Assembly (NCBI RefSeq): GCF_003611635.1
Contig: NZ_RAVZ01000042.1
Coordinates: 1-39,923 of the forward strand
Length of the DNA stretch: 39,923 bases
Direction: 5' to 3'
From: Corallococcus terminator
GTDB lineage: Bacteria > Myxococcota > Myxococcia > Myxococcales > Myxococcaceae
Positions 31,832 through 38,325 of this stretch are shown piece after piece; the first letter of the stretch is position 1, and each line of letters begins with the position of its first letter. A program made the position numbers and the translations under genes. The notes under the pieces are model-generated. The model had not been told where the DNA came from. It did no database searches and saw nothing but the letters and a program-made list of their open reading frames with translations.

Positions 31832-31869
31832 CGGCCCACGCTGACGGCAGGTGGACGTTCACCGCCAAT

Positions 31870-31881
31870 GCCGGGCCCGGC
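31870..31881. promoter_or_regulatory. 12-bp palindrome upstream of the molybdoenzyme operon
   Basis: GCCGGGCCCGGC is a perfect palindrome in the 102-bp gap before the 2Fe-2S subunit gene, 53 bp before its ATG. A nearby AT-richer stretch (TTGATAGTTTTC, 31895-31906) may be part of the promoter. It could equally be the terminator stem of the small upstream gene. Confidence 0.3.
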
Positions 31882-31933
31882 GGGCGCCCCTGGCTTGATA
31901 GTTTTCGTGCCTCCCCAGGGAGGAGCCCCGCCG

Positions 31934-32410
31934 ATGGCCTTCACGCTGAACGTCAACGGAGCACCCCACGTCATCGAGCCAGGTGAGGGCGAGGAAGACA
32001 TTCCCCTCCTCTACGTGCTGCGTGACCACCTGCGCCTCAACGGAGCGAAGTACGGCTGCGGTGTGGGCCAGTGCGGCGCCTGCACCGTGCTGCGCGACGG
32101 CGCCCCGGTGCGCTCGTGCCTGGTGCCGGCAGCGTCCCTTCAAGGGCGGGAAGTCACCACGCTGGAGGGCCTGCGCGCGCCGGAGGGTACGCTGCACGCG
32201 CTCCAGAAGGCGTTCCTGGCCGAACAGGCCGGACAGTGCGCGTACTGCATCCCGGGGATGATCCTCTCGGCGGCGGGCCTGCTCCGACAGAAGCGCTCGC
32301 CCACCGAGGCCGACATCCGGACCGCGCTGGATGCGAACCTGTGCCGGTGTGGTTCACACAACCGCATCGTGCGCGCCGTCCAACGCGCGGCGGCGGAGCT
32401 GGCGGAATGA
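31934..32410 (+). CDS. 2Fe-2S subunit of a xanthine-oxidase-family oxidoreductase (IorA-like)
   Basis: A 158-residue iron-sulfur subunit of the isoquinoline 1-oxidoreductase/aldehyde oxidase type. The plant-type 2Fe-2S cluster uses Cys 42, 47, 50 (YGCGVGQCGACTV) and Cys 62; the second cluster uses Cys 102 and 105 (GQCAYC) and Cys 137 and 139 (LCRCGSHNRI). It has no signal peptide, so export would depend on the Tat signal of its partner. GGAGGAG lies 8 nt before the ATG. Its stop overlaps the next gene's start by 4 bp (ATGA), implying balanced synthesis of the two subunits. No FAD subunit is adjacent, as expected for the two-subunit IorAB type. Confidence 0.95.
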   Translation: MAFTLNVNGAPHVIEPGEGEEDIPLLYVLRDHLRLNGAKYGCGVGQCGACTVLRDGAPVRSCLVPAASLQGREVTTLEGLRAPEGTLHALQKAFLAEQAGQCAYCIPGMILSAAGLLRQKRSPTEADIRTALDANLCRCGSHNRIVRAVQRAAAELAE

Positions 32411-34623
32411 GCGCCCGCGTCTCCAGGCGTTCGGTGTTGCAGGGCTCGCTGGTGCTGGCCTTCTCGCTCGCGGGGCCCGCGCTCCTCGCGCAGACCTCGA
32501 AGCCGCGGTTGCCCGGCGACCTGGCGCGCACGCCCGGACTCGATGCGTGGTTGCGCATCGGCGCGGACGGTGTCGTCACGCTGATGACGGGCAAGGTGGA
32601 GTTGGGCCAGGGCATCCTCACCGCGCTGGGGCAGTTGTGCGCGGACGAACTGGACGTCGAACCTTCCCGGCTGCGCATCCTCTCCGGCGACACCCGCGTC
32701 TGTCCTCCCGAAGGCGTCACCGCCGGCAGCATGTCCATCCCCAACGCCGGCGCGGCCGTGCGTCAGGCGTCGGCGGAGGTGCGCGCGCTGCTCGTGTCCC
32801 TGGCCGCGGAGCGACTGCGCGTCCCGGCGAAGCGGCTGCGCGTCCAGGACGGCACCGTGAAGAACACCGGTGGCGGCGCGGTCACGTACTGGGCGCTCGT
32901 CGGTGGAAAGCGCTTGAACCGCGAGGCCACCGGCGCCGTCGCGCCCAAGCCCGCATCGCAGCGGCGCCACGCGGGCAAGCCCCTGCCCCGGGTGGACCTG
33001 CCCGCGAAGCTCACGGGCGAGCCCCGCTTCGTCCAGGACCTGCGTCCCGACACGCTGGTGCATGGGCGTGTCGTGCGCGCGCCCACGCCCGGCGCCTCCC
33101 TGACGGAGGTGGACACGGTGAAGGTGTCCGCGATGCCCGGCGTGCTCAAGGTGGTGCGGGACGGCGACTTCCTGGGCGTCATCGCCACGCGGGAATGGCA
33201 GGCCGTGAAGGCCGCCGCCGCCCTGGCCCTGGTCGCACGCTGGAAGGAAGGGCGGCCCCTGCCCGTGGATCCGCATGCGTGGTTGCTGTCACAGCCCACG
33301 CAGGACACGGTCATCCACCGCGTCGAGCGCCCCACCGACGTCGCCCCCGAGCGCATGCTGGAGGCCACCTACCGCCGGCCGTACCAGATGCATGCGTCCA
33401 TCGGTCCCTCCTGCGCGGTGGCGGCGTGGGACGGCAGCACGCTGACCGTGGACACCCACAGCCAGAGTGTCTTTGAAACCTCCGAAGCCATCGCGAAGCT
33501 GCTGGGGCTCTCCAAGGACCAGGTGCACGGCCGGCACGTGGAGGGCTCCGGCTGCTATGGCCATAACGGCGCGGACGACGTAGCAGCCGATGCTGCCTTG
33601 CTCGCCCGTGCTCTGCCCGGTCGCGCCGTGCGCGTGCAGTGGTCCCGCGAGGATGAACACACCCAGGAGCCGTACGGCGCCGCCATGGTGACGAAGGTGC
33701 GTGCGGGCGTGGATGTGAATGGGGACGTGCTCGACTGGGATTACGCGCTGTGGTCCACGTCGCATGGCACCCGCCCCGGCGGCGAGCCCGGCAACCTGCT
33801 CGCGGGCCGTTCGCTGGCGAAGCCGTTCCGGCAGCCGACGCCCAGGAATGGCGGACCGCCGAACTACTCCGCCGACCGCAATGCCATCCCTCTGTATGCC
33901 TTTCCCGGCCAGCAGGTGACGACGCACTTCGTGACGGCGATGCCCCTGCGGGTGTCCTCGATGCGCGGCCTGGGCGCGTACGCGAATGTCTTCTCCATCG
34001 AGTCCTTCATGGACGAGCTGGCGCACGCGGCGGGCGTGGACCCGGCGACGTACCGCTTGCGGCAGCTCCAGGACGCACGGGCGAAGGCAGTCATCGCCCG
34101 CGCGACGGAGCGGTTCGGCTGGAACCGCTTCGAGCGCCGGCCGCACCACGGCCGGGGTCTGGCCTTCGCCCGGTACAAGAACCTGGCGACGTACTGCGCC
34201 GTGTGCCTGGAGGTCTTCGTGGATCCGGCGACGCACGCGCCGCGCGTGGTGCGCGCCGTCATCGCCGCCGACGCGGGCGAGGTCGTCAATCCGGACGGGC
34301 TCGCCAACCAGTTGGAGGGGGGCCTCCTCCAGTCACTGAGCTGGAGCCTGAAGGAGGCCGTCCGCCACGACGCCCGGCGCATCCTGTCGCGCGACTGGGA
34401 GGGCTATCCCATCCTCACCTTCTCCGAAGCGCCGTCCGTGGACGTGCAGCTCATCGACCGGCCGGAGGAGCCGTTCCTCGGCGCGGGAGAGGCGAGCCAG
34501 GGGCCCACGCCCGCGGCGCTCGCCAACGCCGTGTTCGATGCGACGGGGCTGCGCGTGCGCGACCTGCCGGTGACGCCAGAGCGACTGGCGGCGCTGCGAC
34601 GGGCTCAGGGCGCCGGGCAGTAG
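32407..34623 (+). CDS. Molybdopterin-binding subunit of an exported oxidoreductase (IorB-like)
   Basis: The 738-residue catalytic subunit of a xanthine-dehydrogenase-family hydroxylase, closest in layout to the isoquinoline 1-oxidoreductase beta subunit. A Tat signal (SRRSVLQGSLVLAFSLAG, Arg 7-Arg 8) directs the folded enzyme to the periplasm. The molybdopterin-dinucleotide domain contains MTGKVELGQG, GSGCYGHNGADD and SMRGLGAYAN. The catalytic Glu is Glu 695 in GAGEASQGP. Such enzymes hydroxylate N-heteroaromatics or oxidise aldehydes and pass electrons out through the 2Fe-2S subunit to a cytochrome. The di-haem lipoprotein encoded convergently just downstream is a likely acceptor; their 3' ends overlap by 19 bp. 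The substrate is unknown. Molybdenum cofactor maturation genes are not in the window. Confidence 0.94.
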   Translation: MSARVSRRSVLQGSLVLAFSLAGPALLAQTSKPRLPGDLARTPGLDAWLRIGADGVVTLMTGKVELGQGILTALGQLCADELDVEPSRLRILSGDTRVCPPEGVTAGSMSIPNAGAAVRQASAEVRALLVSLAAERLRVPAKRLRVQDGTVKNTGGGAVTYWALVGGKRLNREATGAVAPKPASQRRHAGKPLPRVDLPAKLTGEPRFVQDLRPDTLVHGRVVRAPTPGASLTEVDTVKVSAMPGVLKVVRDGDFLGVIATREWQAVKAAAALALVARWKEGRPLPVDPHAWLLSQPTQDTVIHRVERPTDVAPERMLEATYRRPYQMHASIGPSCAVAAWDGSTLTVDTHSQSVFETSEAIAKLLGLSKDQVHGRHVEGSGCYGHNGADDVAADAALLARALPGRAVRVQWSREDEHTQEPYGAAMVTKVRAGVDVNGDVLDWDYALWSTSHGTRPGGEPGNLLAGRSLAKPFRQPTPRNGGPPNYSADRNAIPLYAFPGQQVTTHFVTAMPLRVSSMRGLGAYANVFSIESFMDELAHAAGVDPATYRLRQLQDARAKAVIARATERFGWNRFERRPHHGRGLAFARYKNLATYCAVCLEVFVDPATHAPRVVRAVIAADAGEVVNPDGLANQLEGGLLQSLSWSLKEAVRHDARRILSRDWEGYPILTFSEAPSVDVQLIDRPEEPFLGAGEASQGPTPAALANAVFDATGLRVRDLPVTPERLAALRRAQGAGQ

Positions 34624-35246
34624 GCCCCGGAGTCCACCCACGCCTGGAAGAGCTCACCGAACGCGGCCTGCGTGCCGGGCACCGGCTGGCGTCCTGGGCC
34701 CGGGTTCCAGCCCCAACCCACGAGCTCATCCTTCGCCATGTGGTGCTGGAGGGCCGCCAGGTCCTTGCCCCCGTTGCGCTTCGGATCCTTGAGCTGCTCG
34801 CAGATGGCGCCCAACGAGCGCCCCACCCACGCCATCTCCACGGGTGCCAGGGCCCACTTCGGGTTGCCCGGGATGCTGGCCACGGTGGTGCCCACCGTGG
34901 GCGTGTTCGTCGCCTGATGACAGGACGTGCAGGGCAGCCCCGGAGGACCGTGGCCGTCCGCTCCGCCCACCACCGCCGGGACGTGGGCGTGCTGCTGCAT
35001 CCCCTGCCGGGGCCGGCCGTCCGCCGGGTGGCAGTTGGTGCAGCGCGGATGGGCAATCACCCGGCCCGCTTCCAGGAAGAGCGCCACCGAGCGCGCCTCC
35101 TTGTTCTCGATGTTCGAGAAGGACGCCACGGGACGGAGCGCATCCGGGGACACGGGAGGCTCCGTGGGAGCCTGCGTCGAACTCCGGCAGCCCGTGAGCG
35201 CGACGACTCCACACGACAGCACGAGGATGAACCGGTGGCTTCGCAT
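34605..35246 (-). CDS. Di-haem c-type cytochrome lipoprotein
   Basis: A 213-residue exported lipoprotein: MRSHRFILVLSCGVVALTGC with lipobox LTGC and acylated Cys 20. Two c-type haem motifs are present, CTNCH (69-73) and CTSCH (106-110). The rest (PADGRPRQGMQQHAHVP, WAL, CEQLKD, AFGELFQAWVDSGAYCP) resembles the small cytochromes that accompany isoquinoline-oxidoreductase-like molybdoenzymes, as in rhizobial Mll3835-type proteins annotated as a third subunit (from memory). It probably takes electrons from the IorAB-like enzyme in the periplasm. It is convergent to, and overlaps by 19 bp, the molybdopterin subunit gene, so it is regulated from its own promoter in the divergent gap before the adenosine deaminase gene. 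An in-frame start at 35339 would bury the signal peptide. Confidence 0.88.
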   Translation of the reverse strand: MRSHRFILVLSCGVVALTGCRSSTQAPTEPPVSPDALRPVASFSNIENKEARSVALFLEAGRVIAHPRCTNCHPADGRPRQGMQQHAHVPAVVGGADGHGPPGLPCTSCHQATNTPTVGTTVASIPGNPKWALAPVEMAWVGRSLGAICEQLKDPKRNGGKDLAALQHHMAKDELVGWGWNPGPGRQPVPGTQAAFGELFQAWVDSGAYCPAP

Positions 35247-35405
35247 GCCCGTCGAGCGTGACACGGGCGAAGGCCGCCCGGCCATCCTCGAAGGCGCCCT
35301 CCCCGCATCCAAGTGTCCACCTTCCGCCGGCCCCTTCATCCCTGGGTCGCAGATGTGTCAGGCGCTCTCTGCCCTGGGTCCGTCTTGAATTCATTGCCAT
35401 ACACA

Positions 35406-35444
35406 TTCTCGTAAAACTGGATAGACGAGAAAAGTCCTTCTCGT
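35406..35444. promoter_or_regulatory. Three-copy TTCTCGT repeat, candidate operator
   Basis: TTCTCGT occurs at 35406-35412 and 35438-35444 and in inverted form (ACGAGAA) at 35425-35431; the last two make a perfect 7-bp dyad with a 6-bp centre. All lie in the only AT-rich stretch (about 35385-35445) of the 256-bp gap between the divergent cytochrome and adenosine deaminase genes. Repeated half-sites of this kind usually bind a dimeric regulator. Confidence 0.5.
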
Positions 35445-35502
35445 TCTCCTCTGGAGGCTGTACGGAGCGCCCCCTTCCCTCCACAAGGACTGCCCCACCG
35501 CC

Positions 35503-37089
35503 ATGATCAGATTCTCATCCTTCGCCATCGTCGCCGCGCTCGGCCTGAGTGCCTGCAATGAAGAGGATCCCGTCCCGCCGGTTGAGAAGACGCGAGAGGA
35601 GCGGGTCAACGAGCACATGGAGTCGCTGCGCAACGACTCCACGGCGCTCGGGAACTTCCTGTTCGCCATGCCCAAGGGTGGCGACCTGCACAGCCACACC
35701 TCCGGCGCCATCACCACGGAGAAGCTGATTGCCTGGGGTGCGGAGGACGGGGCGTGTGTGAACACGACGACCTACGTGGCCAGCAACCCGTGCGCGGCCG
35801 GCGCGGTGCCCCTGGCCCAGACGGAGACCGACCGTGCCTTCTATGACGCGGTGATGAGCGCCTGGTCCATGGAGGACCACCCGGGCCCCCTGCTGAGCGC
35901 GCACCAGCACTTCTTCGACGCCTTCGGCAAGTACGGCGCCGTGCAGCTCGATTCGCGCAATGACGACAGCTACGCGGACATCCTGTCGCGCGCGGGCCGG
36001 CACAACCAGGTCTACGTGGAGCTGATGCAAGGCTTTGGCGCGAGCACGGGCGGCCGGCTCGCCACGCCGCTGTTCACGTCCACGGATGTCTGGGACAAGG
36101 CGACCCTGCTGGCGAAGCGGCAGCAGCTCATCGCGCTGCCGGACTTCCAGAGCGCGCTGACGGCGCAGGTCACCAGCATCGCGAACACCCTGAAGGGGGC
36201 CCGCGAGCTGCTCCTGTGTGACACCGCCCAGGCGGACCCCGGCTGCACCGTGGACGTGCGCCTGCTCGTCTCCGCCAACCGCACGGCGGACCGGACGAAC
36301 GTCTTCGGGCAGTGGGTGTATGCCTATGAGCTGGCCCAGAAGGTCCCCGAAATCGTCGGCGTGAACCTCGTGTCGCCGGAGGAGAACGCCAACTCGCTCG
36401 CGTTCTACCAGGATGAGATGTTCGCCCTGGGCACGCTCGACGACTTCAACGACCAGGAGGTCGGCCGCAAGCTGGTGCATGTGTCGCTGCACGCCGGGGA
36501 GCTCATCCCGTCGGTGCTCGGCGCGCAGGACCAGTCGCACATGAACTTCCACATCCGCGAGGCCGTGGAGAAGGCCCACGCGGAGCGCATCGGCCATGGC
36601 GCGGACGTGCTGAGCGAGACGGCCGGCGACGGCGCCGAGGACCTGCTGCGCGACATGAGCGCCGCGGGCGTGATGGTCGAAATCTGCCTCACCTCCAACC
36701 GCGTCCTGCTGGGCATGTCCGGCGACGCGCACCCGCTGGCCGCGTACCTGAAGAACAACGTGCCGGTGGCCCTGGCGACGGACGACTCCGGCATCCTGCG
36801 CGGGGACATCACCCAGGAGTACGTGGCCGCCGCCACCGCCCAGGGGCTCGACTACAAGACGCTCAAGAAGATGGCGCGCGCCAGCCTGGAGCATGCCTTC
36901 GCGGAGGGCGACAGCCTCTGGGTCCGCCGCGATGACTTCACCACCGTCGCGACCGCCTGCGCCTCCGACACGCCGGAGGGCACCCTGTCGGGGGCTTGCA
37001 GCGGCTTCCTCACCAACAACAAGCGGGCCTGGATGCAGTGGAAGCTGGAAATGCAGCTCGCCACCTTCGAGCGCATCGTCGCCCCGTGA
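35503..37089 (+). CDS. Exported lipoprotein adenosine deaminase-family enzyme
   Basis: A 528-residue member of the adenosine/AMP deaminase superfamily with a lipoprotein signal (MIRFSSFAIVAALGLSAC, Cys 18). The metal site is complete: His 63 and His 65 in PKGGDLHSHTSG, His 330 in SLHAGE with catalytic Glu 333, His 365 in RIGHGADV, and Asp 427/428 in ATDDSG. The architecture resembles secreted ADGF/CECR1-type deaminases more than the 330-residue cytoplasmic enzyme, with inserts and several Cys that may form disulfides. It would deaminate extracellular adenosine or a related purine nucleoside at the cell surface. Residues 19-50 are a charged linker. No partner gene is adjacent; a strong hairpin follows. 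Substrate preference is inferred from the family only. Confidence 0.9.
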   Translation: MIRFSSFAIVAALGLSACNEEDPVPPVEKTREERVNEHMESLRNDSTALGNFLFAMPKGGDLHSHTSGAITTEKLIAWGAEDGACVNTTTYVASNPCAAGAVPLAQTETDRAFYDAVMSAWSMEDHPGPLLSAHQHFFDAFGKYGAVQLDSRNDDSYADILSRAGRHNQVYVELMQGFGASTGGRLATPLFTSTDVWDKATLLAKRQQLIALPDFQSALTAQVTSIANTLKGARELLLCDTAQADPGCTVDVRLLVSANRTADRTNVFGQWVYAYELAQKVPEIVGVNLVSPEENANSLAFYQDEMFALGTLDDFNDQEVGRKLVHVSLHAGELIPSVLGAQDQSHMNFHIREAVEKAHAERIGHGADVLSETAGDGAEDLLRDMSAAGVMVEICLTSNRVLLGMSGDAHPLAAYLKNNVPVALATDDSGILRGDITQEYVAAATAQGLDYKTLKKMARASLEHAFAEGDSLWVRRDDFTTVATACASDTPEGTLSGACSGFLTNNKRAWMQWKLEMQLATFERIVAP

Positions 37090-37095
37090 GTCGTC

Positions 37096-37128
37096 GCCTT
37101 CGCGCCTCCGTCACGGGGGCGCGAGGGC
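37096..37128. terminator. Long bidirectional terminator hairpin
   Basis: The two arms 37096-37110 and 37114-37128 pair over 15 positions (two G-U pairs) with a TCA triloop, in the 45-bp gap between the convergent adenosine deaminase and solute-binding protein genes. There is no T-run on either side. Confidence 0.65.
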
Positions 37129-37134
37129 AGCAGG

Positions 37135-38325
37135 TCAGCGCCCCACGCCGATGCGCGACCACAAATCCAACAGGGTGCGCAGCACGGCCGCGTCCGGCAC
37201 CTCCGCCGCGGGCGGCACGTCCACCCGGATGCCATGGGCCGCAAGCCGCGTGAAGGGGTTGTCCGCGTCCGGTGTCTTCAGCGGCACCGACGGGTCCGCC
37301 GGCCGGAAGCCGAACGCCAGGGCCCGCGACTGCACCGGTTTGCTGCGCAGGAAGCCCACCCACTCCAGCGCGGCCTCACGCTGCGCGGGCGTCACCCAGT
37401 CCGCCTGGAGCACCGCCGCTGGATGGTCGCTCCACAGCGTCACCGGCGGGTAGTCCACCTGGAGCTGTCCCCACCGCCCCTGCGCATGGCCCAGTTGCGA
37501 GATGACCAGGCTCTCGTACACCAGCGCCAGGTCGTAGCGGGACGGGCCGAAGCGCACCAGGTCCGTCATGAAGATGCCGGTGGAGGGCTCGAAGCGCGTC
37601 ACGCCCCGCTCCAGGCGCTTGAGCCATTCCTGGTAGCCCGGCGCCAGCAGGTCCTGCTGCTGAACTCCCGCGCGGCGCCCCAGGTACTCCAGCGTCGCGG
37701 ACAGGAGCGCCTGGAGGCCGGAGTTGGATTTCGTCGGGTCGGTGTGGCCCAGCTTCACGAAGCCCCACTCCGCGGGGCCGCCCACCGCGGGCCAGCCCTG
37801 GTCGCTCGCCACGGCGCGCTGGAGCGTCTTCCATGACAGCCCCCCGCCTCCGCCCGCCTTGCGCAGCACCTCCATCCGGTCCTGCCAGCCCACGAAGACC
37901 AGCGGGGTGATGACCAGCGGCTGCGGCGCGGCGTCCCCCTGCGTCGCGAACAGCGGCCCGTGCGAGGCGTCCGTCGCCCAGTCCGCCGCGAGCATGCGCA
38001 GGACAGCGCTGTCCGCCGGACTCCACACCGTGGGCTGCTCGCGGCCCTCCAGGATGGCCTGGGCCGCGTCCAGTGAACCCCGTCCCACCAGCGTCACCCG
38101 CACGTGCGGGTGCGTCGTCTGGAACTCCGCGAGCGCCGCCTCCACCCACTCGCGCTTCTCCGTGCTGTAGAGGAAGGTGATGTCCGTCACCTTCCGGCGC
38201 GACGGCGGACGCACGGACTCCGGCTCAGACGCCACCGTGCGAGGCGAGTCCGGGGCCGCCAGCAGGTAGAACACCCCGAACGCCGCGGCCAGCACGCCAA
38301 TGAGGAGAAGGACCCGGGGCTTCAT
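37135..38325 (-). CDS. Membrane-anchored extracellular solute-binding protein
   Basis: A 396-residue periplasmic binding protein (SBP_bac_11-like). It begins with an uncleaved-looking membrane anchor or signal (MKPRVLLLIGVLAAAFGVFYLLAA, about 1-24). The mature part opens with the type 2 binding-protein pattern ITFLYSTEKREWVEAALAEFQ, then RGSLDAAQAILEGREQPTVWSPADSAVL, reminiscent of molybdate- or iron-type binding proteins. No permease or ATPase gene is adjacent, so the ligand and transporter are unknown. In some genomes such proteins accompany VWA-domain proteins, but none is visible here. AGGCGGGAC precedes the ATG. Convergent with the adenosine deaminase gene, divergent from the following lipoprotein gene. 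Confidence 0.85.
   Translation of the reverse strand: MKPRVLLLIGVLAAAFGVFYLLAAPDSPRTVASEPESVRPPSRRKVTDITFLYSTEKREWVEAALAEFQTTHPHVRVTLVGRGSLDAAQAILEGREQPTVWSPADSAVLRMLAADWATDASHGPLFATQGDAAPQPLVITPLVFVGWQDRMEVLRKAGGGGGLSWKTLQRAVASDQGWPAVGGPAEWGFVKLGHTDPTKSNSGLQALLSATLEYLGRRAGVQQQDLLAPGYQEWLKRLERGVTRFEPSTGIFMTDLVRFGPSRYDLALVYESLVISQLGHAQGRWGQLQVDYPPVTLWSDHPAAVLQADWVTPAQREAALEWVGFLRSKPVQSRALAFGFRPADPSVPLKTPDADNPFTRLAAHGIRVDVPPAAEVPDAAVLRTLLDLWSRIGVGR

Follow-up and report, generated by a model that had tools for sequence, protein, structure and literature searches.

The window analysed here is a whole 39,923-nt stretch of DNA from Corallococcus terminator, contig C366 of a 10.35-Mb genome assembled in 863 contigs. 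It contains a gene for a predicted lipoprotein of the adenosine deaminase superfamily, which lies between a small gene encoding two CxxCH motifs and a gene encoding a solute-binding protein, both on the opposite strand (Table 1). The gap upstream of the deaminase gene harbours an AT-rich, promoter-like block (GC content of 43% at 35400-35455 versus 68.5% for the window), within which the heptamer TTCTCGT occurs three times, once in inverted orientation. The stop codon is followed by an inverted repeat that falls between two convergent genes and resembles a terminator, but without a run of T.

Table 1. Features of the deaminase locus. Positions refer to the window unless another contig is named; invariance is given for the 13 aligned deaminase proteins or for the six Corallococcus orthologues, as indicated.
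Feature	Position	Strand	Details
Small gene, two CxxCH motifs	34605-35339	-	Upstream neighbour of the deaminase gene
Relocatable unit	35309..37130	+	Deaminase gene, ~200 bp upstream and short 3' hairpin; defined by blastn
Left-end word TGTCCACCTTCCGCC	35314..35328	+	Left end of the unit
AT-rich promoter-like block	35385..35470	+	Alignable in six of six Corallococcus orthologues; no sigma-70 consensus by scan
TTCTCGT copy 1	35406..35412	+	3/7 columns invariant in six orthologues
TTCTCGT copy 2, inverted	35425..35431	-	5/7 columns invariant in six orthologues
TTCTCGT copy 3	35438..35444	+	5/7 columns invariant in six orthologues
Deaminase gene	35503..37089	+	ORF, 528 aa, lipoprotein of the adenosine deaminase superfamily
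Signal peptide and lipobox LSAC	35503..35556	+	Predicted lipidated Cys18; from sequence and orthologue N-termini
Metal-ligand motif H63-S-H65	35689..35697	+	Identical in 13/13
Cysteine-bounded loop C85-C97, after the HxH strand	35755..35793	+	C85 and C97 invariant in 13/13; putative bond
HAGE motif, H330 and catalytic E333	36490..36501	+	Identical in 13/13
Catalytic H365 (IGHG)	36595..36597	+	Identical in 13/13
D427 D428 (TDD)	36781..36786	+	Identical in 13/13
Inverted repeat after the stop codon	37096..37128	+	16-nt arms, 88% complementary, 1 nt between
Solute-binding protein gene	37135-38325	-	Neighbour past the deaminase gene
Gutted unit copy	L094:2958-3153 (G072 C119:15957-16152)		84 bp (left end) fused to 113 bp (right end)

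The initial annotation had described a complete deaminase active site on a lipoprotein and a TTCTCGT triple upstream of it, and both observations were upheld; a predicted lipid-anchored member of the superfamily in a predatory genus is supported. The residues H63, H65, H330, E333, H365, D427 and D428, located in the HxH, HAGE, IGHG and DD motifs that we take to supply the metal ligands and catalytic residues, are identical in all 13 aligned proteins (that of C. terminator included), and a lipobox accompanies a match to PF00962 of 82.2 bits against a gathering cut-off of 27. PF00962 is matched by 13/13 members of the deaminase family and is the sole Pfam family found in the 528-residue protein, even at an E-value of 1. 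The enzyme reading holds at the level of the superfamily; as a member of this known superfamily the gene is unremarkable, and its interest lies in where it is found.

Seven cysteines (C85, C97, C239, C248, C395, C486 and C499) are also invariant in the 13 proteins. Six of them could form three pairs (85/97, 239/248 and 486/499), as would be fitting in an oxidising environment, and C395 is located near the active site. The loop bounded by C85 and C97 bears some resemblance to the PRB insertion known from ADGF/ADA2 enzymes, in which a disulphide follows the first catalytic strand.

The curated cut-offs of the more narrowly defined models TIGR01430 (adenosine deaminase equivalog; 84.4 of 216.55 bits) and TIGR01431 (ADGF; 43 of 315 bits) were both missed, so that AMP, a modified nucleoside or another compound is a possible substrate; at an E-value of 0.001 each model matches 13/13 members. 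A preference for AMP is on record for one enzyme of the ADGF family (PMC10358891). The nearest named relative at the deaminase gene is that of Corallococcus praedator (93% identical), and relatives with 52-93% identity include proteins of Polyangium, Hyalangium, Desulfobulbaceae, Electronema and Thiotrichaceae, the last three groups being represented by MAGs. A search of the open-licence literature found no study of the gene. A second deaminase lineage, 31-34% identical, is present in five genomes of the order including G028 (L022-L026), and the three N-termini read from it (L024-L026) all have a PKG-DLHxH start with a cysteine pair after it. The orthologue in genome G112 (L006, G112:C1:170974-172557, minus strand) contains one in-frame TAG near its N-terminus and may therefore be a pseudogene.

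A permissive lipobox pattern was detected in 28 of 30 N-termini, two of the 30 rows repeating a genome already counted, and the positive rows include Desulfobulbaceae, Electronema and Polyangium. Of the two exceptions, the G058 protein has no lipobox and the Thiotrichaceae sequence ILGC is missed by the pattern. Sorting rules for Myxococcus xanthus, as given in passages of PMC3222651, assign lipoproteins with Lys at position +2 to the inner membrane and those with Ala at +7 to the extracellular matrix (ECM). The mature N-terminus of the C. terminator protein has Asn at +2 and Val at +7, and Ala never occupies +7 across the 28 lipobox rows, such that the M. xanthus-type matrix signature is absent from them. 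With neither +2 Lys nor +7 Ala, the same rules point by exclusion to the outer membrane (passages of PMC3222651); two Myxococcus orthologues have Lys at +2 and would by these rules reside in the inner membrane. The site of action would be either the periplasm or the cell surface, the latter being a prediction from the N-terminus.

An AlphaFold2 model of the deaminase built with 13 sequences (pLDDT 80, pTM 0.80) has pLDDT values below 50 at residues 1-26 and, near the active site, at residues 66-68, 335-340 and 345-347. Structural alignment with VIA-align gave Z 28.3 over 403 residues for the ADGF chain 9nti_B and Z 27.2 over 402 residues for human ADA2 (3lgd_A), although by Z the ADGF/ADA2, classical adenosine deaminase and Cad1 folds are tied against the model. 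The ADGF/ADA2 rows cover 402-408 residues at an rmsd of 4.4-4.8, the classical adenosine deaminase rows 308-341 residues at 3.2-3.6, and the Cad1 deaminase rows 313-358 residues at a lower rmsd than the ADGF/ADA2 rows. In the region where ADGF/ADA2 enzymes have their N-terminal dimerisation domain, the ADGF rows begin at model residue 10-20, within the segment 1-26 where pLDDT is below 50, and the Cad1 and Plasmodium adenosine deaminase rows begin at 25-32. The top Foldseek matches were Cad1 and classical adenosine deaminases, and no ADGF/ADA2 chain was present among the best 50 rows listed. A profile of the N-terminal part (219 positions) produced two matches in the PDB at E-values up to 10: ADA2, over the PKG-LHxH stretch, at a non-significant 0.14 that is barely better than the 0.19 of the other, an unrelated prepilin.

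Several of these features resemble ADGF/ADA2 (CECR1). Both proteins have an export signal, here indicated by the lipobox pattern in 28/30 rows, both begin with PKG-x-x-LHxH, the alignment extends further than any classical adenosine deaminase row, and ADA2 is the only deaminase of the two N-terminal profile matches. Unlike ADGF/ADA2, however, the C. terminator protein has a predicted lipid anchor and reaches 43 of 315 bits with TIGR01431, and the family is missing from the best 50 Foldseek rows. On the model, the deaminase would be ADGF-like in architecture at most, and we do not call it a member. A secreted bacterial ADGF homologue of Skaldin et al. 2018 (Mol Biol Evol, msy193) has been proposed as an ADGF precursor (PMC10358891), and by its description our protein is likened to it as a bacterial exported deaminase. 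With classical adenosine deaminases (TIGR01430) the protein shares the catalytic core and its residues, but it differs from them in its export signal and in roughly 180-200 extra residues. The N6-methyl-AMP deaminases (MAPDA/ADAL) likewise share the core fold (Z 26.0-26.7 over 321-341 residues), but these alignments start at model residue 45-50 and leave the N-terminal part unmatched.

The deaminase gene occupies three locations in six Corallococcus genomes, and a 1.8-kb unit is the only DNA found to be common to them. In C. terminator, G117, G118 and G028 the gene lies between the two-CxxCH gene and the solute-binding protein gene, whereas in G072 and G096 it is found at other places. Blastn comparison of C. 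terminator with G072 detected homology at 35309-37130, and with G096 at 35297-37089, and in both cases the flanks fetched were without homology. A tblastx search for common flanks at 18 loci of other genera returned only short pieces among the matches listed. G055 and G066 yielded no deaminase; in these genomes the two-CxxCH and solute-binding genes are adjacent and the DNA corresponding to C. terminator 35268-37134 is missing. The flanks of the G096 unit were not found side by side in any of 15 other genomes, many of them drafts. G072 also contains a gutted second unit, in which 84 bp from the left end (93% identical) directly abut 113 bp from the right end (96% identical). The gene and ~200 bp upstream are found together at different places, and this sets tight limits on the extent of the regulatory DNA. 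We read the interval between the two-CxxCH and solute-binding genes as the old site, followed by later losses and by moves whose direction we infer.

Site-specific insertion at TGTCCACC was considered because this sequence, located at the left end of the unit in 3/3 locations, is also present at the two junctions that lack the deaminase (G055 and G066). This is the less likely explanation: TGTCCACC was absent from the ~340-base counterparts of the G096 upstream flank in 4/4 genomes (G066, C. terminator, G072 and G028), the gutted G072 copy carries TGACCACC, and TGTCCACC with up to one mismatch gave 31 matches versus 24 for the control, consistent with no clear repeat family. No transposase was noticed by eye among the listed ORFs beside the units or the gutted copy.

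The deaminase was found in 6 of 16 Corallococcus genomes (not in the other ten), in 23 of 96 genomes and 6 of 26 genera at the level of the family, and in 20 of 117 genomes at the level of the order, many of these genomes being drafts. On a tree of the neighbouring gene region, three changes of presence are needed for the 16 Corallococcus genomes, and two of these are forced by well-supported branches. The deaminase tree resolves the genus only in part and pairs C. terminator with G118 (92/93, weak), and the neighbour tree pairs G117 with G118 (83/79, weak). The best reading is that the unit has been patchily kept, with more than one loss or move during the history of Corallococcus.

Taken together, these results are consistent with a model, to which we assign a probability of about 0.6, in which an exported, lipid-anchored purine-nucleoside deaminase with a nutritional role is encoded on a relocatable unit whose TTCTCGT triple is not a conserved operator. 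The enzyme would be metal-dependent, and the conversion of adenosine to inosine and ammonia is the most likely reaction. Export would follow the lipoprotein route, and the protein would act outside the cytoplasm, probably at the outer membrane. The gene would travel together with its promoter region in an autonomous segment of 1.8 kb. Lysed prey and dead kin would supply the adenosine, which would be turned into inosine and ammonia for uptake, with a putative benefit to the cell; scavenging is the safe default role. In the open-licence literature, no paper was found that brings together adenosine, myxobacterial predation and extracellular nucleosides.

Signal quenching, in which the deaminase would remove excreted adenosine and so set a developmental threshold or jam neighbouring cells, appears unlikely beside the nutritional role, but it is a testable alternative because excreted adenosine has been reported as a density signal in Myxococcus. 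In favour of quenching, a deaminase predicted to act outside the cytoplasm is distributed patchily, in 6/16 genomes, within the fruiting genus Corallococcus. In 1981 Shimkets and Dworkin reportedly identified excreted adenosine as a cell-density signal for the initiation of fruiting bodies by Myxococcus xanthus. Against quenching weigh the relatives encoded by MAGs of Electronema, Desulfobulbaceae and Thiotrichaceae, groups that to our knowledge do not fruit, and no developmental link was found at the deaminase locus. Support for a quencher comes from the adenosine that starving M. xanthus releases to induce fruiting (passages of PMC5942856), and a parallel is offered by Dictyostelium development, in which extracellular deamination by ADGF provides ammonia for tip formation (passages of PMC12711200). 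The 1981 study is cited in the reference list of PMC8963815, and in the available passages of a 2025 Myxococcus review (PMC12288465) adenosine is mentioned three times, as cyclic AMP, as AMP and in the title of a reference.

A bolder extension, which we regard as decidedly improbable, is that this relocatable, patchily inherited one-gene unit encodes a surface enzyme that destroys the adenosine density signal of the community. If true, carriers would raise the fruiting threshold of their neighbours or profit from the adenosine released, and the deaminase would be a social-conflict gene in myxobacteria, parallel to extracellular ADGF deamination in Dictyostelium. If the enzyme is extracellular, the adenosine crowding signal in starving Myxococcus could be tested with one gene, and species with and without the deaminase within one genus constitute ready-made comparisons.

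In the nutritional deaminase reading, the TTCTCGT triple is a feature of the promoter region and not a conserved operator. Its existence is not in doubt: the three copies, one inverted, lie in the AT-rich gap at the coordinates first reported, and nowhere else in the window are three copies of a 7-mer, counted on either strand, found within 39 bp. When the 163-bp gap was shuffled with its dinucleotides preserved, a three-copy 7-mer cluster arose in 12 of 20,000 replicates, in a test that was chosen post hoc. The excess of TTCTCGT in the window (14 observed versus 2.75 expected) is attributed to codon use, with frames judged by GC rather than by annotation, because the other 11 occurrences all fall within long open frames whose third-position GC is at least 0.87, and in 9 of these 11 ACGAGAA is read as [Y/D/N]-E-[K/N] in the best frame.

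That the triple is a real operator, with a dimeric regulator bound to inverted pairs, or a leader-RNA attenuator whose middle arm switches partners, is improbable. The rarity of the cluster by chance speaks for such a site, as do arms 1:2 and 2:3, which form perfect 7-bp inverted pairs in C. terminator and G117 and still pair in G118 with one G-U. However, the exact triple is confined to 2/6 Corallococcus orthologues (C. terminator and G117); G118 retains copies 1 and 3 with ACGAGGA as copy 2, and G028, G072 and G096 have no exact copy, their arm pairing falling to 3-6 (1:2) and 4-5 (2:3) of 7. The copies are thus absent from three of the five other orthologues and in part from a fourth, and the three-copy operator proposed in the initial annotation did not hold up by the criterion of conservation in orthologous promoters that the annotation itself had set. 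A search of the 10.35-Mb genome also yielded no further cluster of this kind.

Conservation within the block gave a similar picture. Across the six orthologues 44 of 86 columns are invariant, 13/21 in the TTCTCGT copies versus 31/65 elsewhere in the block (Fisher p 0.32), and within the small numbers available copies 2 and 3 have 10/14 invariant columns versus 3/7 for copy 1. Because the neighbouring columns are similarly invariant (6/17 at 35368-35384, 15/32 at 35471-35502, and 30/60 over the opening 60 bases of the coding sequence, with partial gaps in one row), the block is not outstanding. Moreover, copies 2 and 3 vary at non-mirrored positions, unlike a symmetric operator. The exact arrangement is present once in the genome: a 26-bp pattern has one place without mismatch and, at up to two mismatches, 42 matches per strand versus 57 for the reversed control; ACGAGAA-N6-TTCTCGT at up to two mismatches gave 3 matches per strand versus 2 for the control; and the six-species block pattern at up to three mismatches has a single place, upstream of the deaminase gene. 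An operator with a regulon was rejected on these pattern counts. An attenuator RNA was rejected on the folding of the leader (z -0.42), with 63 of 200 shuffles folding at least as stably. Scans for sigma-70 promoters and terminators gave no match at the deaminase gene. The TTCTCGT triple belongs to the AT-rich promoter region of this lineage and is not a conserved operator; any regulator site should lie within the roughly 200 bp that accompany the gene, and TTCTCGT is not its signature. Upstream of the Hyalangium versicolor orthologue there is a different three-copy 7-mer, CTGACAC (L032:2777-2812).

Periplasmic purine catabolism, in which the deaminase would feed the neighbouring Fer2/molybdopterin dehydrogenase and c-type-cytochrome-like protein (31868-35339), is highly improbable: subunits of the xanthine dehydrogenase superfamily adjoin the deaminase here and likewise in G028 and G117, but they reach no xanthine dehydrogenase cut-off, the dehydrogenase of G055 and G066 has no deaminase beside it, none having been found in these genomes, and in G072 and G096 the deaminase lies elsewhere than beside it. 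In stretches of G046, G051, G081 and G083, the dehydrogenase block was not found beside the solute-binding protein gene. In C. terminator the neighbourhood at 31868-35339 encodes a 2Fe-2S subunit, the small two-CxxCH protein and a molybdopterin-binding dehydrogenase whose N-terminus is twin-arginine-like.
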